This document shows positions 4,852-23,740 of a DNA stretch of 23,740 nucleotides, in pieces. The stretch spans positions 1 through 23,740 of the IMG/VR virus record IMGVR_UViG_3300044972_000880, one strand, 5' to 3'. Positions within the stretch are counted from its first letter, which is position 1. Each line of letters starts with the position of its first letter. The notes beneath the pieces were generated by a model that did no database searches, was not told the DNA's origin, and saw only the letters and a list, made by a program, of their open reading frames with translations. A program made the translations under genes and the position numbers. This stretch comes from a virus.

Positions 4852-5169
4852 ATGCAACTAGTAAACGCTGACCAAATCCGTGCAATCGTGAATTCGACCA
4901 ACTCGTTCTCCAAAGAAGTGATGGAGGCGAACCGCGAGTTAATCAAAACCCTACGTGCCGAAAAGAAGGCACGTCTTATGCAACTCACCCCGTCACAAAT
5001 CGGGACGTTAATTGAACATGAGGGGCTGACGTTGGTTGGTGAGAAACGGCGCACACTCAAAAACGGTGTTCCTGTTGTCACCTTGACTCTTCGTGGCACA
5101 CAAGACGAACGCGCCAAATTGCTCAAAGAAAAGGCAAAGATTGAGGCTCTGCTCGCCAAATTGAACTAA
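4852..5169 (+). CDS. Unknown small protein, first gene of early arm
   Basis: A 105-residue protein, not recognised. It starts behind the A-rich leader AAAGATAAAAAC. The N-terminal half is a charged helix (VMEANRELIKTLRAEKKARL), the middle has a beta-rich segment with GLTLVGEKRRTLKNGVPVVT, and the C terminus is again a charged helix (ERAKLLKEKAKIEALLAKLN) likely to form a coiled coil. It is one base upstream of the lysozyme-like gene. Being first after the control region it may be expressed early, but no function can be assigned. Confidence 0.75.
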   Translation: MQLVNADQIRAIVNSTNSFSKEVMEANRELIKTLRAEKKARLMQLTPSQIGTLIEHEGLTLVGEKRRTLKNGVPVVTLTLRGTQDERAKLLKEKAKIEALLAKLN

Positions 5170-5170
5170 G

Positions 5171-5512
5171 ATGCTGGCAACCATTCTGTTCTCCGCGATT
5201 GTAGCGGTGGAAAGTGGCGGAAATCGCCTTGCCGTAGGTGACAACGGCAAGGCAGTTGGCCCAGCCCAAATGTGGGCCATCACGGTGCGAGACGTTAATC
5301 GCATTCTCGGCGAGCCTGTCTTCCGCATGGAGGACAGGTTTTCGCTTGCAAAATCAAAAGCAATGTTCGACATATACACAACTCACTATGGTAAACGCTA
5401 TGGCATACCCATCACCGACGAGGTTAGGGCTAAGGTTTGGAATGGTGGCCCAGATGGGCCTAAGAAACAGGCAACAAATAAATATTGGCAGAAAGTGAAA
5501 TCAAAATTATGA
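5171..5512 (+). CDS. Lysozyme-fold / lytic transglycosylase-like protein
   Basis: A 113-residue protein with a compact lysozyme-superfamily pattern: AIVAVESGGNRLAVGD with the presumed catalytic Glu at residue 14, GKAVGPAQMW at 27-35, and NGGPDG at 91-96 followed by ATNKYWQKV near the C terminus. This arrangement is seen in short transglycosylase-like proteins that cleave peptidoglycan glycan chains. No signal peptide precedes the catalytic helix, so it would need a holin or another export route, or it acts within the virion. The start ATG at 5171 follows the previous stop by one base; the stop overlaps the next start as ATGA. It could be the endolysin, although a lysis gene at the start of the early arm is unusual. 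Confidence 0.72.
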   Translation: MLATILFSAIVAVESGGNRLAVGDNGKAVGPAQMWAITVRDVNRILGEPVFRMEDRFSLAKSKAMFDIYTTHYGKRYGIPITDEVRAKVWNGGPDGPKKQATNKYWQKVKSKL

Positions 5513-5751: not shown

Positions 5752-5764
5752 CAATCAGGCCGAA

Positions 5765-5821
5765 ACAACGCTCCCAAGCGTTGTCTTGTGGTAGTTTCCA
5801 CAACTGACGAGGCCAGTCGTC
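5765..5821 (+). promoter_or_regulatory. Three consecutive hairpins before the amidoligase gene
   Basis: ACAACGC/GCGTTGT (5765-5771 with 5778-5784), TTGTGG/CCACAA (5786-5791 with 5798-5803) and GACGA/TCGTC (5806-5810 with 5817-5821) follow one another, each with a six-base loop. They fill the 90-base gap between two genes and are followed by the A-rich leader of the amidoligase gene. There is no U-run, so I read them as a structured leader or RNA-processing site rather than a terminator. Confidence 0.55.
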
Positions 5822-5842
5822 TCAAGATAGAAACATACAAAA

Positions 5843-6844
5843 ATGAGAAATCAGATAGAAATACCCGTGTATCCTGAGGGTGCCTCTCAAGGCATCACCT
5901 TCAGGCATCGGGAGTTTAGTTACGCAATTCCGTCGTATTCATTCACAGATGAGTACACGCAGACGCTATGGGCGAAAAGTTTCGCCAAAAAAGCAAGAAA
6001 ACTAATAACCAAAACCGGCATAGAAAACGTCATTCTTGACGTATTCAGATACAGGGGCTCAACGCAATACAATGATCGGGTGCATCAACGCAGGCTGGCC
6101 AAGCAATTGGGCAGTTGCGACCCGTTAGTTAGGCAACCGTTTCTTGACAGAATCAAGCAACAAAATCTCACGCCGCAAGTATTCAGATACGACAGGGCAA
6201 TTGGCGTTGAGATAGAATGCCTAAAGCCTGCTGGAAGGCGAGTTGATATTCCCATATGGTCAAGGGCCAAGGGTGATGGCAGTATTAGGCCCGCACCCAA
6301 CACAGAGGCCGTTGAGTATGCCATCCTCATAAAGCGGTCAGAGTTGGAGCACAGGCTTCACAAATTCTGCGGTCTAATCTCTGACCATAGGGTAAACACA
6401 TCATGTGGACTTCATGTCCACATTGATTGCCGGGGTCGCACGGAAGATGATGTGCGTAAGATTGCCAAGCGGATGACCGCGTGGATGATTGCACTCAAGG
6501 AATTCGTTCCCGAGAGTAGGCGCAACAACACGGACTACGCCGCGCTTTCTTTCTCGGAAACCAACCGCTACCGCGCCATCAACTTCACGGCGTTCAAGAA
6601 GTATAAGACGTTGGAAATTCGGTTGCACAGTGGCACCGTTGATTACACGAAAATCATTGCATGGATTAGACTGTGCGAGCTATTGTTTGTGATTAACGTA
6701 AAGCCCAAGGCGGGGGCTGAGGGCGTTGCGGCTCTCTGTCAATTGCCCTTGACTGAATACGAGAAAAGCTACTGGCTCAAGCGTCACCAGCAGCTAAATC
6801 CCGGCCATTACAGCAGCAGCACGCCAAGCACGGAAAGCGAGTGA
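5843..6844 (+). CDS. Amidoligase-family enzyme (glutamine synthetase-like COOH-NH2 ligase)
   Basis: A 333-residue protein with the hallmarks of the Pfam 'putative amidoligase' family: GVEIEC at residues 121-126 (metal/ATP-binding Glu residues), GDGSI at 144-148, the strongly conserved SCGLHVHID at 187-195, RYRAINF at 242-248 and TLEIRLHSGTVD at 256-267. Enzymes of this fold use ATP to join a carboxylate to an amine, forming amide or peptide bonds. Residues 1-115 are a basic N-terminal extension of unknown role, and the tail after residue 318 is Ser-rich. The next gene is a class II glutamine amidotransferase, the known genomic partner of this family, so the pair may make or modify a peptide or cell-wall linked compound. 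The substrate is unknown. Confidence 0.87.
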   Translation: MRNQIEIPVYPEGASQGITFRHREFSYAIPSYSFTDEYTQTLWAKSFAKKARKLITKTGIENVILDVFRYRGSTQYNDRVHQRRLAKQLGSCDPLVRQPFLDRIKQQNLTPQVFRYDRAIGVEIECLKPAGRRVDIPIWSRAKGDGSIRPAPNTEAVEYAILIKRSELEHRLHKFCGLISDHRVNTSCGLHVHIDCRGRTEDDVRKIAKRMTAWMIALKEFVPESRRNNTDYAALSFSETNRYRAINFTAFKKYKTLEIRLHSGTVDYTKIIAWIRLCELLFVINVKPKAGAEGVAALCQLPLTEYEKSYWLKRHQQLNPGHYSSSTPSTESE

Positions 6845-6850
6845 GTCAAC

Positions 6851-6900
6851 CAGCCCCTAAGCAATTGGGGGCTGTCATGTCTTCCTCGGTTGGAATGACA
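6851..6900 (+). promoter_or_regulatory. Two hairpins between amidoligase and amidotransferase genes
   Basis: CAGCCCC (6851-6857) pairs with GGGGCTG (6868-6874). Immediately after, TGTCA (6873-6877) and TGACA (6896-6900) enclose TTCC/GGAA (6882-6885 with 6892-6895), giving a bulged second stem. The A-rich leader AAAAACAAAAACAT and the next ATG follow. Without a U-run this is more likely a structured leader or mRNA-stabilising element than a terminator. Confidence 0.5.
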
Positions 6901-6913
6901 AAAACAAAAACAT

Positions 6914-7732
6914 ATGTGTAAACTAGCAATCGTTACTAAGCATGACAGCACCAAACTTGGTGCTATCATTGTCAATGCGTGGAAAGAAATGTCCACGACA
7001 GAGAGAGATGGATTCGGGGCGGCGTGGGTTGGCCCGAATGGAAAGATTGGTTATGTCAAAAGCTCGCAGCCTTCGTTTCTGCCTGAGTTGCCAGCGTTCT
7101 GCTCGGCATTTTCAGACGGCAATGGACTCAAGAGTGATGGCAGTGCCCTCATCATTCATGGTCGCACGGCAACGTGTGGTGTGAATGTGGGAAATACCCA
7201 CCCAATGATGGGCAACAACTGTGCATTGGTGCACAACGGTGTTGTGAGTTCCAAGCGTTTCCACAACACGGAAACCACTTGTGACTCCGAGCTGTTGCTC
7301 CATGCGTGGAAGGCGGATGGTATTGACGCGGTGGCCAAGGATATTTCCGGCTACTATGCGTTCGCCATTCTCCAGCGCATCAGGGGCAAGACGGTGCTCG
7401 ACATCGTGCGAGACGACAGGGCGCAGCTCAAGGTGGGCAAGATTGACGATGGTTGGGCATTCGCCACGACGCCCTCGTTGCTTGCCACACTGGGCTCAAG
7501 CTATCTGTCGGACTACAAGCCAAACACCCATACATCATTTGTAGATGGCGAGGTGTATTCCGTGGAAAACTTCATCCCGGCGGAGGCTGATAAGCGTCTT
7601 GAGAAAGCCGCAGAGAAAGCCATTGGTATGAGTGACATGGCCACGCGATACAGGGAGAGCACCAATTGGCGTTCGTATGAAGCCGCCAGAGCGAAACAGG
7701 AGGCAATGGACCTCGGTTGGGGTGCTGCATAA
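6914..7732 (+). CDS. Class II glutamine amidotransferase (Ntn hydrolase)
   Basis: A 272-residue protein whose second residue is Cys (MCKLAI), the N-terminal nucleophile of class II glutamine amidotransferases once Met is removed. Further family motifs are DGFGAAW at residues 32-38, HGRTATCG at 82-89, NTHPM at 94-98, LVHNGVV at 105-111 and DSELLLH at 124-130. These bind glutamine and form the oxyanion hole. The enzyme would release ammonia from glutamine or process a gamma-glutamyl bond. The domain ends near residue 215, followed by an Ala/Glu-rich helical tail of unknown role. It has no synthetase domain of its own, so the adjacent amidoligase is the likely acceptor enzyme. The start at 6914 is fixed by the need for Cys2. 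Confidence 0.9.
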   Translation: MCKLAIVTKHDSTKLGAIIVNAWKEMSTTERDGFGAAWVGPNGKIGYVKSSQPSFLPELPAFCSAFSDGNGLKSDGSALIIHGRTATCGVNVGNTHPMMGNNCALVHNGVVSSKRFHNTETTCDSELLLHAWKADGIDAVAKDISGYYAFAILQRIRGKTVLDIVRDDRAQLKVGKIDDGWAFATTPSLLATLGSSYLSDYKPNTHTSFVDGEVYSVENFIPAEADKRLEKAAEKAIGMSDMATRYRESTNWRSYEAARAKQEAMDLGWGAA

Positions 7733-7734
7733 TT

Positions 7735-7980
7735 ATGTCCCGCAAACTACAACCAGATGGCAAGCGGGTGAGGATTCCGCCCATCGTAATATCGGCTACA
7801 ACCAAGCGGAAGATGGATGCTTGGCGTATTCAGTATGGCATACCACATGGCCGCATTGTGGACGCTATGCTGAAGCACGTTGAGCAAGACTTCAAGTTCG
7901 TCATTCCGCTAAGCGGGCAGAGGCGCAGCCTAATCGGTGAGCTTCAGCCCTTCAACAACAAGGCATTGTGCAACACATAA
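7735..7980 (+). CDS. Small protein, possible ribbon-helix-helix DNA-binding type
   Basis: An 81-residue basic protein starting two bases after the amidotransferase stop. The segment at residues 15-50 (PPIVISATTKRKMDAWRIQY, then GIPHGRIVDAMLKHV) has the order beta strand, helix, turn, helix expected for a ribbon-helix-helix (CopG/Arc-like) repressor. The rest is a basic tail. If correct it would bind DNA as a dimer and might regulate its own operon. The fold is inferred from pattern only. Its 3' end overlaps the start of the tiny membrane protein gene. Confidence 0.65.
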   Translation: MSRKLQPDGKRVRIPPIVISATTKRKMDAWRIQYGIPHGRIVDAMLKHVEQDFKFVIPLSGQRRSLIGELQPFNNKALCNT

Positions 7981-8081
7981 AAACACTAGCGTTGGTTATC
8001 CTAGCCGTCATTGCGGCTGGGATAATTGTCCCCATCATTGTGGGATTTCTACTGTCCCGGTGGAAAGATGACGACCATTAG
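7968..8081 (+). CDS. Tiny single-pass membrane protein, GTG start
   Basis: A 37-residue frame, GTG at 7968 to TAG at 8081, overlapping the previous gene by 13 bases. After a short polar start (MQHIKT) comes about 22 hydrophobic residues (LALVILAVIAAGIIVPIIVG) and a tail SRWKDDDH. It reads as one transmembrane helix with a short charged tail. The next small gene has the same plan with tail WGKDDDD, which supports both being real. Such proteins in phages can be holins, spanin parts or inhibitors of host membrane functions. The non-ATG start is the only one available. Confidence 0.5.
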   Translation: MQHIKTLALVILAVIAAGIIVPIIVGFLLSRWKDDDH

Positions 8082-8110
8082 AAGGCGCGTTCATTTTCCG
8101 TCTTCCGGTA

Positions 8111-8131
8111 AATGGTAATCCTTTGACCATT
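8111..8131 (+). promoter_or_regulatory. Hairpin between the two tiny membrane protein genes
   Basis: AATGGT (8111-8116) pairs with ACCATT (8126-8131) over a nine-base loop in an 80-base gap. The following AAATGACACTATGACACTCC contains a tandem copy of ATGACACT, of which the second ATG is used as the start of the next gene. Confidence 0.35.
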
Positions 8132-8160
8132 AAGTCAGATAACACTCAATAAATGACACT

Positions 8161-8280
8161 ATGACACTCCCTAATCTAATCGGCCTAGGCTTGGCCGTTC
8201 TAATTATCCTTCAATTGCTCGGTCTAATCGTTTTATGGCAAATTTGGGGCAAAGACGACGACGACTCATGGGATTTGTAA
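8161..8280 (+). CDS. Second tiny single-pass membrane protein
   Basis: A 39-residue frame from ATG at 8161. It has a hydrophobic helix (NLIGLGLAVLIILQLLGLIV) and a tail LWQIWGKDDDDSWDL that is strongly acidic. It resembles the preceding 37-residue protein in size, single transmembrane helix and W.KDDD tail, although the helix sequences differ, so they may be a diverged pair. Two membrane peptides in tandem suggest a holin/antiholin pair or membrane-targeted host takeover proteins; there is no direct evidence. An ATG nine bases upstream in another frame ends at once. Confidence 0.55.
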   Translation: MTLPNLIGLGLAVLIILQLLGLIVLWQIWGKDDDDSWDL

Positions 8281-8293
8281 ACAACCACACGAA

Positions 8294-8539
8294 ATGAAAA
8301 AACACATGACTAAACAGCAAATCATTCAATTCCTGCTAGAAACCATAGACGACTACGGGATGCAGATTGACGCCCGTAAACATGAAGAAATCGCGGCATT
8401 TCTTGAGGGAGCCAAGAACCGGGCTGACCTAGCAGACCTAATGGCAGAGCAAGCAAGTTATGCTCTACGATATCGGCACGGTGAAGACCTTGAACAATGC
8501 CAGCGTTCACTACAGAACATTGTGACACTTAACGCATAA
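8294..8539 (+). CDS. Unknown small helical protein
   Basis: An 81-residue protein that I do not recognise. It is mostly helical and acidic (IIQFLLETIDDYGMQIDARK, then HEEIAAFLEGAKNRADLADL) with a C-terminal region YALRYRHGEDLEQCQRSLQN. ATG at 8294 follows the A-containing leader AACCACACGAA; a second ATG at 8306 is possible. It is separated from neighbours by short gaps and has no obvious catalytic residues. Confidence 0.65.
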   Translation: MKKHMTKQQIIQFLLETIDDYGMQIDARKHEEIAAFLEGAKNRADLADLMAEQASYALRYRHGEDLEQCQRSLQNIVTLNA

Positions 8540-8564
8540 TCAAAAATTGCAGAAACTCAGTCAA

Positions 8565-8596
8565 ATATAACAAAAATCGCTTAGATATAACAAAAA
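8565..8596 (+). repeat. Direct repeat of ATATAACAAAAA in a leader
   Basis: ATATAACAAAAA occurs at 8565-8576 and 8585-8596, 20 bases apart, just before the ATG at 8601. The second copy forms the A-rich leader of that gene. The duplication may be a repeated leader or a small operator with two-turn spacing. Confidence 0.55.
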
Positions 8597-8600
8597 ACAC

Positions 8601-8801
8601 ATGAAACTCTTAAAAGAATTTGACGGCAAAAAAGCCGGGGACCGCGTAACAATGTGGGCCGACAGAGGCACCATTGAAGAGGTAATAGACAGTGGATTCC
8701 ATGAGAACGGAAGGTATGCCGTGGCTTATTGGGTTAAATGGGACGATTACGGGTTAACCTGCGTTTCGTTTGATCGGGATGGAAATTGGATTCGGGATTG
8801 A
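8601..8801 (+). CDS. Unknown small beta-rich protein
   Basis: A 66-residue protein starting behind ATATAACAAAAAACAC. It opens MKLLKEFDGKKAGDRVTMWA, followed by GTIEEVIDSG and a strand-rich half with AVAYWVKWDDYGLTCVSFDR. The pattern of strands with GDRV and W..DD resembles a small SH3-like barrel, but I do not recognise a family. It may be a small host-interaction protein, as such proteins are common in phage early regions. Confidence 0.65.
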   Translation: MKLLKEFDGKKAGDRVTMWADRGTIEEVIDSGFHENGRYAVAYWVKWDDYGLTCVSFDRDGNWIRD

Positions 8802-22863: not shown

Positions 22864-23740
22864 TTAGGTGGATGAGAAGGTGGCAAGTTCTTCAATCATG
22901 CTGTTAACAGCTACGCCAGACATACGATAGCCGATGTCTTCCGTCAACAAGTCATAGGAACGGGTGACGCCGCCATAGACAGCGATGGCTTCAACAACTT
23001 CGCCGCCCTTAAAGCTATTCCCCACATTGTAGTCCATCGAGCGTTCGCCTTCAATGCGGTGCATATCGCATACAGAGAAGTCCTTTCCATTATCGAGATA
23101 GAAACGATGGAAGCGTTCGGCTTCTGGGTTCTCGGCATACTCATGTTTAATGAGCACCTTAACGGGTTCGCCAGAGAAGCCAATGACGCTATCACCAGAG
23201 CGGATGTCTTCGATGGCCACTTGGCCTTCTGGTGTGTCAATAAGTTCGCCTTCTGGGATACAGAGGAATGCGGCTTTAGCACCAAGAACTTTACCGGCCA
23301 ATGCGCCTCCAACAATGCTTCCAATCCCGCCGACAATGCCGGAGGTTTTTGTAGCAGAGGCACCAGCCTTAGCAGCCGCCAATTGAGCAGCAGCAGACTG
23401 TTGAGCAATGTCTCGGTTGGTGATGTTAGCTTGATTGGCCAACGCCAAGTTAATACCCGTGTCTGGATTGTAGGTTGTTGGGGTGTTAAACGTCTTAGCC
23501 AAGTCCAGAGCATACCCTTGCTGTTGAGCAGCGGTTTGACCGGCATTGCTCTGTTGACCTAGCAGCATAGCCGTTGGGTCATACGCCGCGCCACGATAGC
23601 CTTGAGCCAAGTTGAGAGCATAAGCCCTATTAGCTTCAGCGGTAGCCGAGTCAGCTTGTCCAATTAGACCAAGGTTAGCAATGTTCTGCTGTTGCTGATT
23701 GGCGGCAAACAAACGATTCTGAGAGGCAAGGTCCATACCC
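22864..23740 (-). CDS. Virion protein with C-terminal Hint (intein-like) domain, incomplete
   Basis: The frame is open to the right edge; an in-frame ATG at 23734-23736 may be internal. The N-terminal 120 or so residues are Gln/Ala/Asn-rich (NQQQQNIANLGLIGQ), followed by an Ala/Gly helix (GIVGGIGSIVGGALAGK). From about residue 159 counted from that ATG comes LCIPEGELIDTPEGQVAIED with C159 and then GDSVIG: block A of a Hint domain. Block B is VCDMHRIEG (CxxH in place of TxxH, H226). The end has YGGVTRSYDLLTEDIGYRMS and VAVNSM (N278-S279), matching the C-terminal splicing block although the usual His before Asn is Val. It may therefore self-cleave or splice, leaving about ten residues after N278. 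Confidence 0.82.
   Translation of the reverse strand, partial: GMDLASQNRLFAANQQQQNIANLGLIGQADSATAEANRAYALNLAQGYRGAAYDPTAMLLGQQSNAGQTAAQQQGYALDLAKTFNTPTTYNPDTGINLALANQANITNRDIAQQSAAAQLAAAKAGASATKTSGIVGGIGSIVGGALAGKVLGAKAAFLCIPEGELIDTPEGQVAIEDIRSGDSVIGFSGEPVKVLIKHEYAENPEAERFHRFYLDNGKDFSVCDMHRIEGERSMDYNVGNSFKGGEVVEAIAVYGGVTRSYDLLTEDIGYRMSGVAVNSMIEELATFSST

Follow-up and report, generated by a model that had tools for sequence, protein, structure and literature searches.

A 23,740-nucleotide stretch of viral DNA (the window; IMG/VR record IMGVR_UViG_3300044972_000880) carries two adjacent plus-strand genes, for an amidoligase and a class II glutamine amidotransferase (GATase). The first gene (5843..6844, ATG start, 333 aa) encodes a ligase of the Amidoligase_2 family, which has the glutamine-synthetase fold; the second (6914..7732, ATG start, 272 aa) encodes an Ntn-type enzyme whose predicted nucleophile is Cys2. 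Both open reading frames lie exactly where an earlier reading, made from the sequence alone, had placed them, and its family assignments hold in a Pfam search of the window ORFs, with both proteins above the curated cut-offs: the amidoligase is PF12224 (Amidoligase_2; E 1.2e-12, 48.6 bits against a cut-off of 22) and the GATase is PF13522 (GATase_6; E 1.8e-12, 47.8 bits against a cut-off of 27) and also PF13537 (GATase_7; 2.3e-6, again above the curated cut-off). PHROGs concur with Pfam on both families, and the amidoligase is a member of PHROG 2443 ('amidoligase enzyme'; 3.5e-21). The motifs that the earlier reading had picked out are all present, GVEIEC, SCGLHVHID, and TLEIRLHSG in the amidoligase and Cys2 and HNG in the GATase; the GATase sequence also contains HGRTAT and DSE. 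No recognizable Shine-Dalgarno sequence was found in the start regions (5825-5843 and 6900-6914). Both starts are preceded by A-rich DNA, which, with the missing Shine-Dalgarno sequences, is a hint about the host.

Each gene follows a structured leader on the same strand: tandem hairpins upstream of the amidoligase (5757..5842) and, in the spacer between the genes (6845..6913), two stable hairpins (~6851-6874 and ~6878-6900). Compared with shuffled sequence, folding of the DNA ahead of the amidoligase (5752-5842) gives a z of -2.8 and that of the spacer a z of -5.1, as against +0.6 to -1.9 for four other intergenic stretches; the hairpins described earlier ahead of each gene are thus confirmed. 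An Rfam search of the window returned no known RNA family at E 1.

The sequence-only reading had also drawn three neighboring genes into the system, and here it did not hold, as none is conserved with the pair. The ORF at 5171-5512, called lysozyme-like, matches Pfam SLT at E 0.054, which is below the cut-off, and at E 0.01 three of its homologues have no Pfam match; the label is weak. This gene was rejected as a part of the system: it has homologues in the phage group, but where relatives retain the pair, several have it at another place, mostly on the other strand (in L026-L032 on the other strand, 4-6 kb away). Two tiny membrane peptides, of 37 and 39 aa and each with one span (7968-8081 and 8161-8280, plus strand), with the acidic C-terminal tails KDDDH and KDDDDSWDL, were likewise rejected, as they are restricted to near-identical contigs. 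An 81-aa ORF at 7735 comes after the GATase gene in the relatives L017 and L019. Genes for the small and large terminase subunits adjoin the pair in close relatives, so that these and the window phage form one phage lineage, which is probably podovirus-like. At the far end of the window, a repeat-rich gene on the minus strand (22864-23736) probably encodes a virion protein; its C-terminal part resembles Hint (PF13403, E 5.4e-5, below the cut-off).

Catalytic residues and folds of the two proteins

Conservation of the amidoligase is concentrated in a catalytic core of about residues 115-320, and the N-terminal extension (1-110) is poorly conserved. Among 21 homologues, down to 24% identity, residues E123, E125, D145, E158, H191, H193, R226, R242, N247, E258, and R260 are invariant or nearly so; those of the ExE, GxHVH, and ExR motifs of a glutamine-synthetase-type active site (E123, E125, H191, H193, E258, and R260) are invariant. 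In the GATase, C2, R84, N108, G109, and D124 are invariant among 23 homologues. When 29 non-redundant pairs were scored, H191, H193, R226, N247, E258, and R260 of the amidoligase were kept in all 29, R242 in 28, and E123/E125 in all 18 sequences that aligned there; D145 and E158 were left out of this scoring because the variable first half of the protein aligned too poorly. R84, N108, G109, and D124 of the GATase were kept in 29 of 29 pairs and C2 in 27, the other two being unaligned at that position. Wherever the alignment of these pairs could be scored, no loss of catalytic residues in homologues was seen, a point on which the earlier proposal had been made to depend.

The amidoligase model has a pLDDT of at least 90 over its core (~115-320). 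Among solved structures it most resembles glutamine synthetases and YbdK (1r8g and 1tt4), with Z of about 11-12, Foldseek E of 7e-4 to 1e-2, and low TM-scores; these E values and TM-scores are weak and so show a shared glutamine-synthetase/GCS2 fold, not close kinship. An hhalign comparison of the amidoligase profile with individual GlnA and YbdK sequences of E. coli gave no significant match, so the correspondence with the metal residues of glutamine synthetase is one of fold and motif only; against PDB sequences the profile matched nothing up to E 10. The GATase model (pLDDT 84) matches PurF, EgtC (4zfk and 4zfj), and GlmS. Its profile aligns with the GlmS glutaminase domain (1xff) at 3.3e-16, which brings R84, HNG, and D124 onto the glutamine-binding residues of GlmS. 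Structure prediction, put forward earlier as a check that would include ATP and metal sites, thus supports both folds, with the metal residues matched at the level just described.

These same matches bear on the main rival explanation, a gamma-glutamyl ligase and hydrolase, like EgtA/EgtC or like GmaS with the class II GATase-like subunit of N-methylglutamate synthase. In such a pair the amidoligase would link glutamate, by its side chain, to an amine and the GATase-fold enzyme would later remove it, the glutamate acting as a carrier or protecting group. The resemblance of the amidoligase model to YbdK, a weak match of the protein to TIGR02050 (YbdK family; 0.012), and the place of EgtC among the best matches of the GATase model are all consistent with this chemistry, whereas the Q-loop and N-x-H-P motifs of the GATase are close to those of GlmS.

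Conservation and probable exchange of the gene pair

An alignment-based scan of viral contigs recovered at least 80 relatives of the amidoligase, with identities from 99% to about 24% in the matched part. Bacterial genomes, scanned in turn, contributed 45 more loci, mostly from Bacteroidota, in many of which the GATase is again the next gene. Among the viral and bacterial matches listed, 83 loci have both genes: the GATase gene is the next one downstream on the same strand in 78 and lies upstream on the same strand in five, and it is never (0/83) on the opposite strand. The gap between the genes in the 78 loci among these matches is often 4-40 nt, or the two overlap. After clustering of the viral and annotated phage loci among the matches listed at 90% identity, 39 of 63 testable amidoligase clusters have a GATase gene directly 3' on the same strand, as does every cluster with enough sequence in the closest subfamily; about 20 of the clusters among the matches listed have no GATase in the fetched DNA. 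None of the loci examined encodes an amidoligase-GATase fusion. The pairing is not due to chance, and the two-gene form proves to be both common and preserved whole; such pairs in viruses were already known. The genes do stand next to each other in related phages, the second point on which the sequence-only reading had hung its proposal, and the recurring order bears out the link that it had drawn between the two families.

Distances of the two proteins correlate across 29 pairs (Mantel r 0.86, 0 of 2000 permutations), but linked genes would correlate anyway; because they share a history, this mirror-tree correlation is weak evidence. The flanks of the pair vary by lineage. Terminase genes flank it in the window phage and close relatives, in Arthrobacter phage Salgado it comes after a helicase gene, and in the faecal phage contig MT835576 the plain pair stands among virion genes, as the pair also does in prophage-like contigs.

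Strict order and adjacency over such distant phages would be unexpected of unrelated metabolic genes, and for this reason it is improbable that the two are independent auxiliary metabolic genes that only boost the nitrogen or amino-acid supply of the host. A role of this sort, in nitrogen metabolism, has been proposed for phage ZRK32, but the published test used the whole phage and not these genes (PMC10945688). That the pair attaches an amide or amino-acid group to nucleotides or to bases of the phage DNA is more improbable still: the arm that holds the pair also holds replication genes, but neither the Pfam search of the window nor the neighbor surveys recognized base-modification enzymes beside the pair, and its position among the virion genes of prophage-like contigs also speaks against such a role.

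Two more viral contigs carry the pair at 99-100% protein identity, one of which (G002) is 39 kb long. Compared with G002, the amidoligase gene has 31 synonymous and three nonsynonymous changes, a dN/dS of 0.025 that marks clear purifying selection; the GATase gene has four synonymous changes and one nonsynonymous change, too few to be strong evidence alone. Synonymous divergence from G002 is 0.72 in the gene at 4852 and 0.16 in the amidoligase, and it falls to 0.02 in the GATase and in the gene at 8601 (66 aa), a pattern that suggests recent recombination between related phages at the GATase end of the cassette, over roughly 6.9-8.8 kb. Set against L008, the window shows a synonymous divergence of 0.02 over about 6914-8800 and of 0.14-0.7 in the genes on both sides.

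Both hairpin leaders are nearly unchanged in relatives whose amidoligase is 66-68% and whose GATase is 84% identical. The first leader (5757-5842) is about 88-93% identical in L017 and L019, with most changes in the loop of its first hairpin, as against 48-78% identity for the coding DNA next to it in L017; the spacer (6845-6913) is nearly identical in five relatives, almost all of its columns being invariant. Synonymous divergence of the GATase gene in relatives is 0.17-0.21 over its first 135 nt and 0.58-0.63 over the rest, so that the constraint seems to extend into the first 90-135 nt of the gene. Low divergence of the leaders and of the 5' end of the GATase gene indicates a probable constraint on the nucleic acid itself, or short-tract conversion. 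Conservation of the leaders above that of the surrounding coding DNA was observed in the comparison of the window, L001, L017, L018, L019, and L143. The hairpins were also considered as a dispersed repeat, an idea that was rejected: each sequence occurs once, in this phage group only, with the same genes downstream.

Proposed chemistry of the pair

About an even chance is given to the reading that the amidoligase and GATase are the subunits of an amide synthase that depends on glutamine and is made during infection. The GATase would shed its initiator methionine, and Cys2 would then hydrolyze the side-chain amide of glutamine. The amidoligase would activate a carboxylate with Mg-ATP, as in glutamine synthetase and the gamma-glutamyl-cysteine ligases, and couple it to the freed ammonia, so that some molecule of the host or the phage would acquire a carboxamide. 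This mechanism builds on the families, residues, and fold models, on the purifying selection on the amidoligase, and on the fixed gene order; from these we infer that both proteins would act in one reaction, with ammonia as the amine and passing between them, and that the target would be a host macromolecule, such as a stem peptide of the cell wall. Of all parts of the mechanism the target is the least secure, and peptidoglycan is named for it only tentatively.

Neighbor surveys of the two-gene form showed no further partner enzyme to be conserved. Pairing a ligase with a hydrolase of its own product would then give a futile cycle, there being no conserved third enzyme to use the intermediate; this argument favors a glutaminase joined to a synthase. 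Several observations count against the amide synthase. The clusters that have no GATase imply that the ligase can act without it, and the absence of fusions between the two proteins was counted on the same side. The GATase model is about equally like EgtC, which hydrolyzes a gamma-glutamyl amide, and GlmS. The distribution of gamma-glutamyl cyclotransferase (GGCT) genes, which replace, adjoin, or are fused to the GATase in some phages, would suit gamma-glutamyl chemistry better than plain amidation. The gamma-glutamyl pair is judged somewhat unlikely.

A GGCT gene lies beside the amidoligase in Salgado, L011, L063-L065, L071, L095, and L132. In phage C75C1, CDS0020 (L147 20149-21045), which is annotated as GGCT, encodes a fusion of class II GATase and GGCT domains; its GATase half scores 21.9 against a Pfam cut-off of 23 bits and keeps Cys2, the Arg, the Asn-Gly, and the Asp. 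GATase and GGCT parts occupy adjoining frames in L079 (4952-5863). Gamma-glutamyl amides are substrates of GATase and GGCT alike, which makes glutamine or gamma-glutamyl chemistry the common theme. Amidoligase_2 is also found fused behind a superfamily-2 helicase in a Myxococcales bin (L139 5742-8615) and in a Planctomycetota bin (L140 6207-8597), the latter with a GGCT gene downstream of the fusion; these fusions possibly belong to a cellular conflict or defense system.

A broader proposal, which is held with a good deal of reserve, is that the pair is a self-sufficient two-subunit amide synthase, dependent on glutamine and distinct from the large module of phages phiEco32 and LUZ24. It would occur in many unrelated phages and prophages, with GGCT added to the GATase, substituted for it, or fused to it, and its expression in the phage group of the window would be under the control of a structured leader with stricter conservation than the proteins have.

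Comparison with known phage modules and enzymes

Amidoligase and GATase genes are widespread in phages. Those of UFV-P2, LUZ24, and PaP3 (PMC3890496) occur with genes for an ATP-grasp protein and a COOH-NH2 ligase and often with GGCT, and modules of this type with the same companions are described for phage tf (PMC3517423) and the PA11-like phage TC6 (PMC6209634). Such modules in PSA-HP1, RIO-1, phiEco32, and others (PMC5498523) and in a LUZ24-like phage (PMC11945000), and the amidoligase and GATase of OM43 phages (PMC10580990), have been proposed to modify peptidoglycan; these papers propose cell-wall modification against superinfection, after Iyer et al. 2009.

By analogy to these, the window pair may be a minimal peptidoglycan-modifying module that blocks superinfection, a reading that concerns the target and overlaps with the amide synthase. 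The published interpretation of the same families argues for it (PMC5498523; PMC10580990; PMC11945000), but the usual label of peptidoglycan modification rests on comparative genomics. The searches used detected neither of the most cell-wall-like members, ATP-grasp and COOH-NH2 ligase, in the window or in close relatives, the local lysozyme-like gene is outside the conserved unit, and the full modules have the GATase upstream of the amidoligase with the genes apart; such a role is possible and rather doubtful.

The phiEco32/LUZ24-type module shares with the window its PF12224 and PF13522 proteins and their position in the early/replication arm of podoviruses, but there the GATase comes first and other ligases lie between, whereas in the window the amidoligase is followed by the GATase with nothing between. 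Two oyster phages in which the full module is annotated likewise have the GATase upstream of the amidoligase and not adjacent to it. Both served as positive controls for the COOH-NH2 ligase (PF14395), which matched them and had no match in the window or G002, records that may be fragments. GGCT (PF06094) was not found in the window or in G002, nor by a single-sequence search that found it in 11 other records. For ATP-grasp there was no match by single-sequence search or with PF14243, a profile that missed one of two positive controls and placed the other below the cut-off. Since the amidoligase and GATase genes adjoin without a COOH-NH2 ligase or GGCT, the window phage is, as judged from gene content, a minimal two-gene form of a known kind. 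Compared with modules of five or six genes this form is the easier one to study biochemically, with only two soluble proteins of 270-330 residues, a conserved order, and intact sites, and identifying the amidated molecule would matter for dozens of phage genera.

Among named phages, Salgado (Laroyevirus, genes 97-99) has an amidoligase gene and, directly after it on that strand, one for a GATase of much the same length as here; unlike in the window, a GGCT gene comes first (PF06094, 2.1e-18), and the proteins are about 21-24% identical to those of the window. Phage C75C1 (OQ984151, 39.5 kb), the nearest named phage by terminase (44% identity), has a similar layout, with the amidoligase beside the terminase end of the replication arm, but its GATase, fused to the GGCT domain, lies four small genes away.

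Outside phages, the closest parallels are two enzyme pairs. EgtA/EgtC act in ergothioneine synthesis, where EgtC hydrolyzes a gamma-glutamyl conjugate; no ergothioneine genes were seen in the window. What this pair has in common with that of the window is a glutamine-synthetase-fold enzyme, in its case a gamma-glutamyl ligase, together with a protein of class II GATase fold, in its case a hydrolase, and EgtC is itself a structural match. MurT-GatD is a two-gene ligase and glutaminase that carries out the glutamine-dependent amidation of peptidoglycan glutamate. Although its Mur-ligase and class I GATase have other folds and are not homologous to the window proteins, it performs the two-gene, glutamine-dependent carboxylate amidation that is proposed here.
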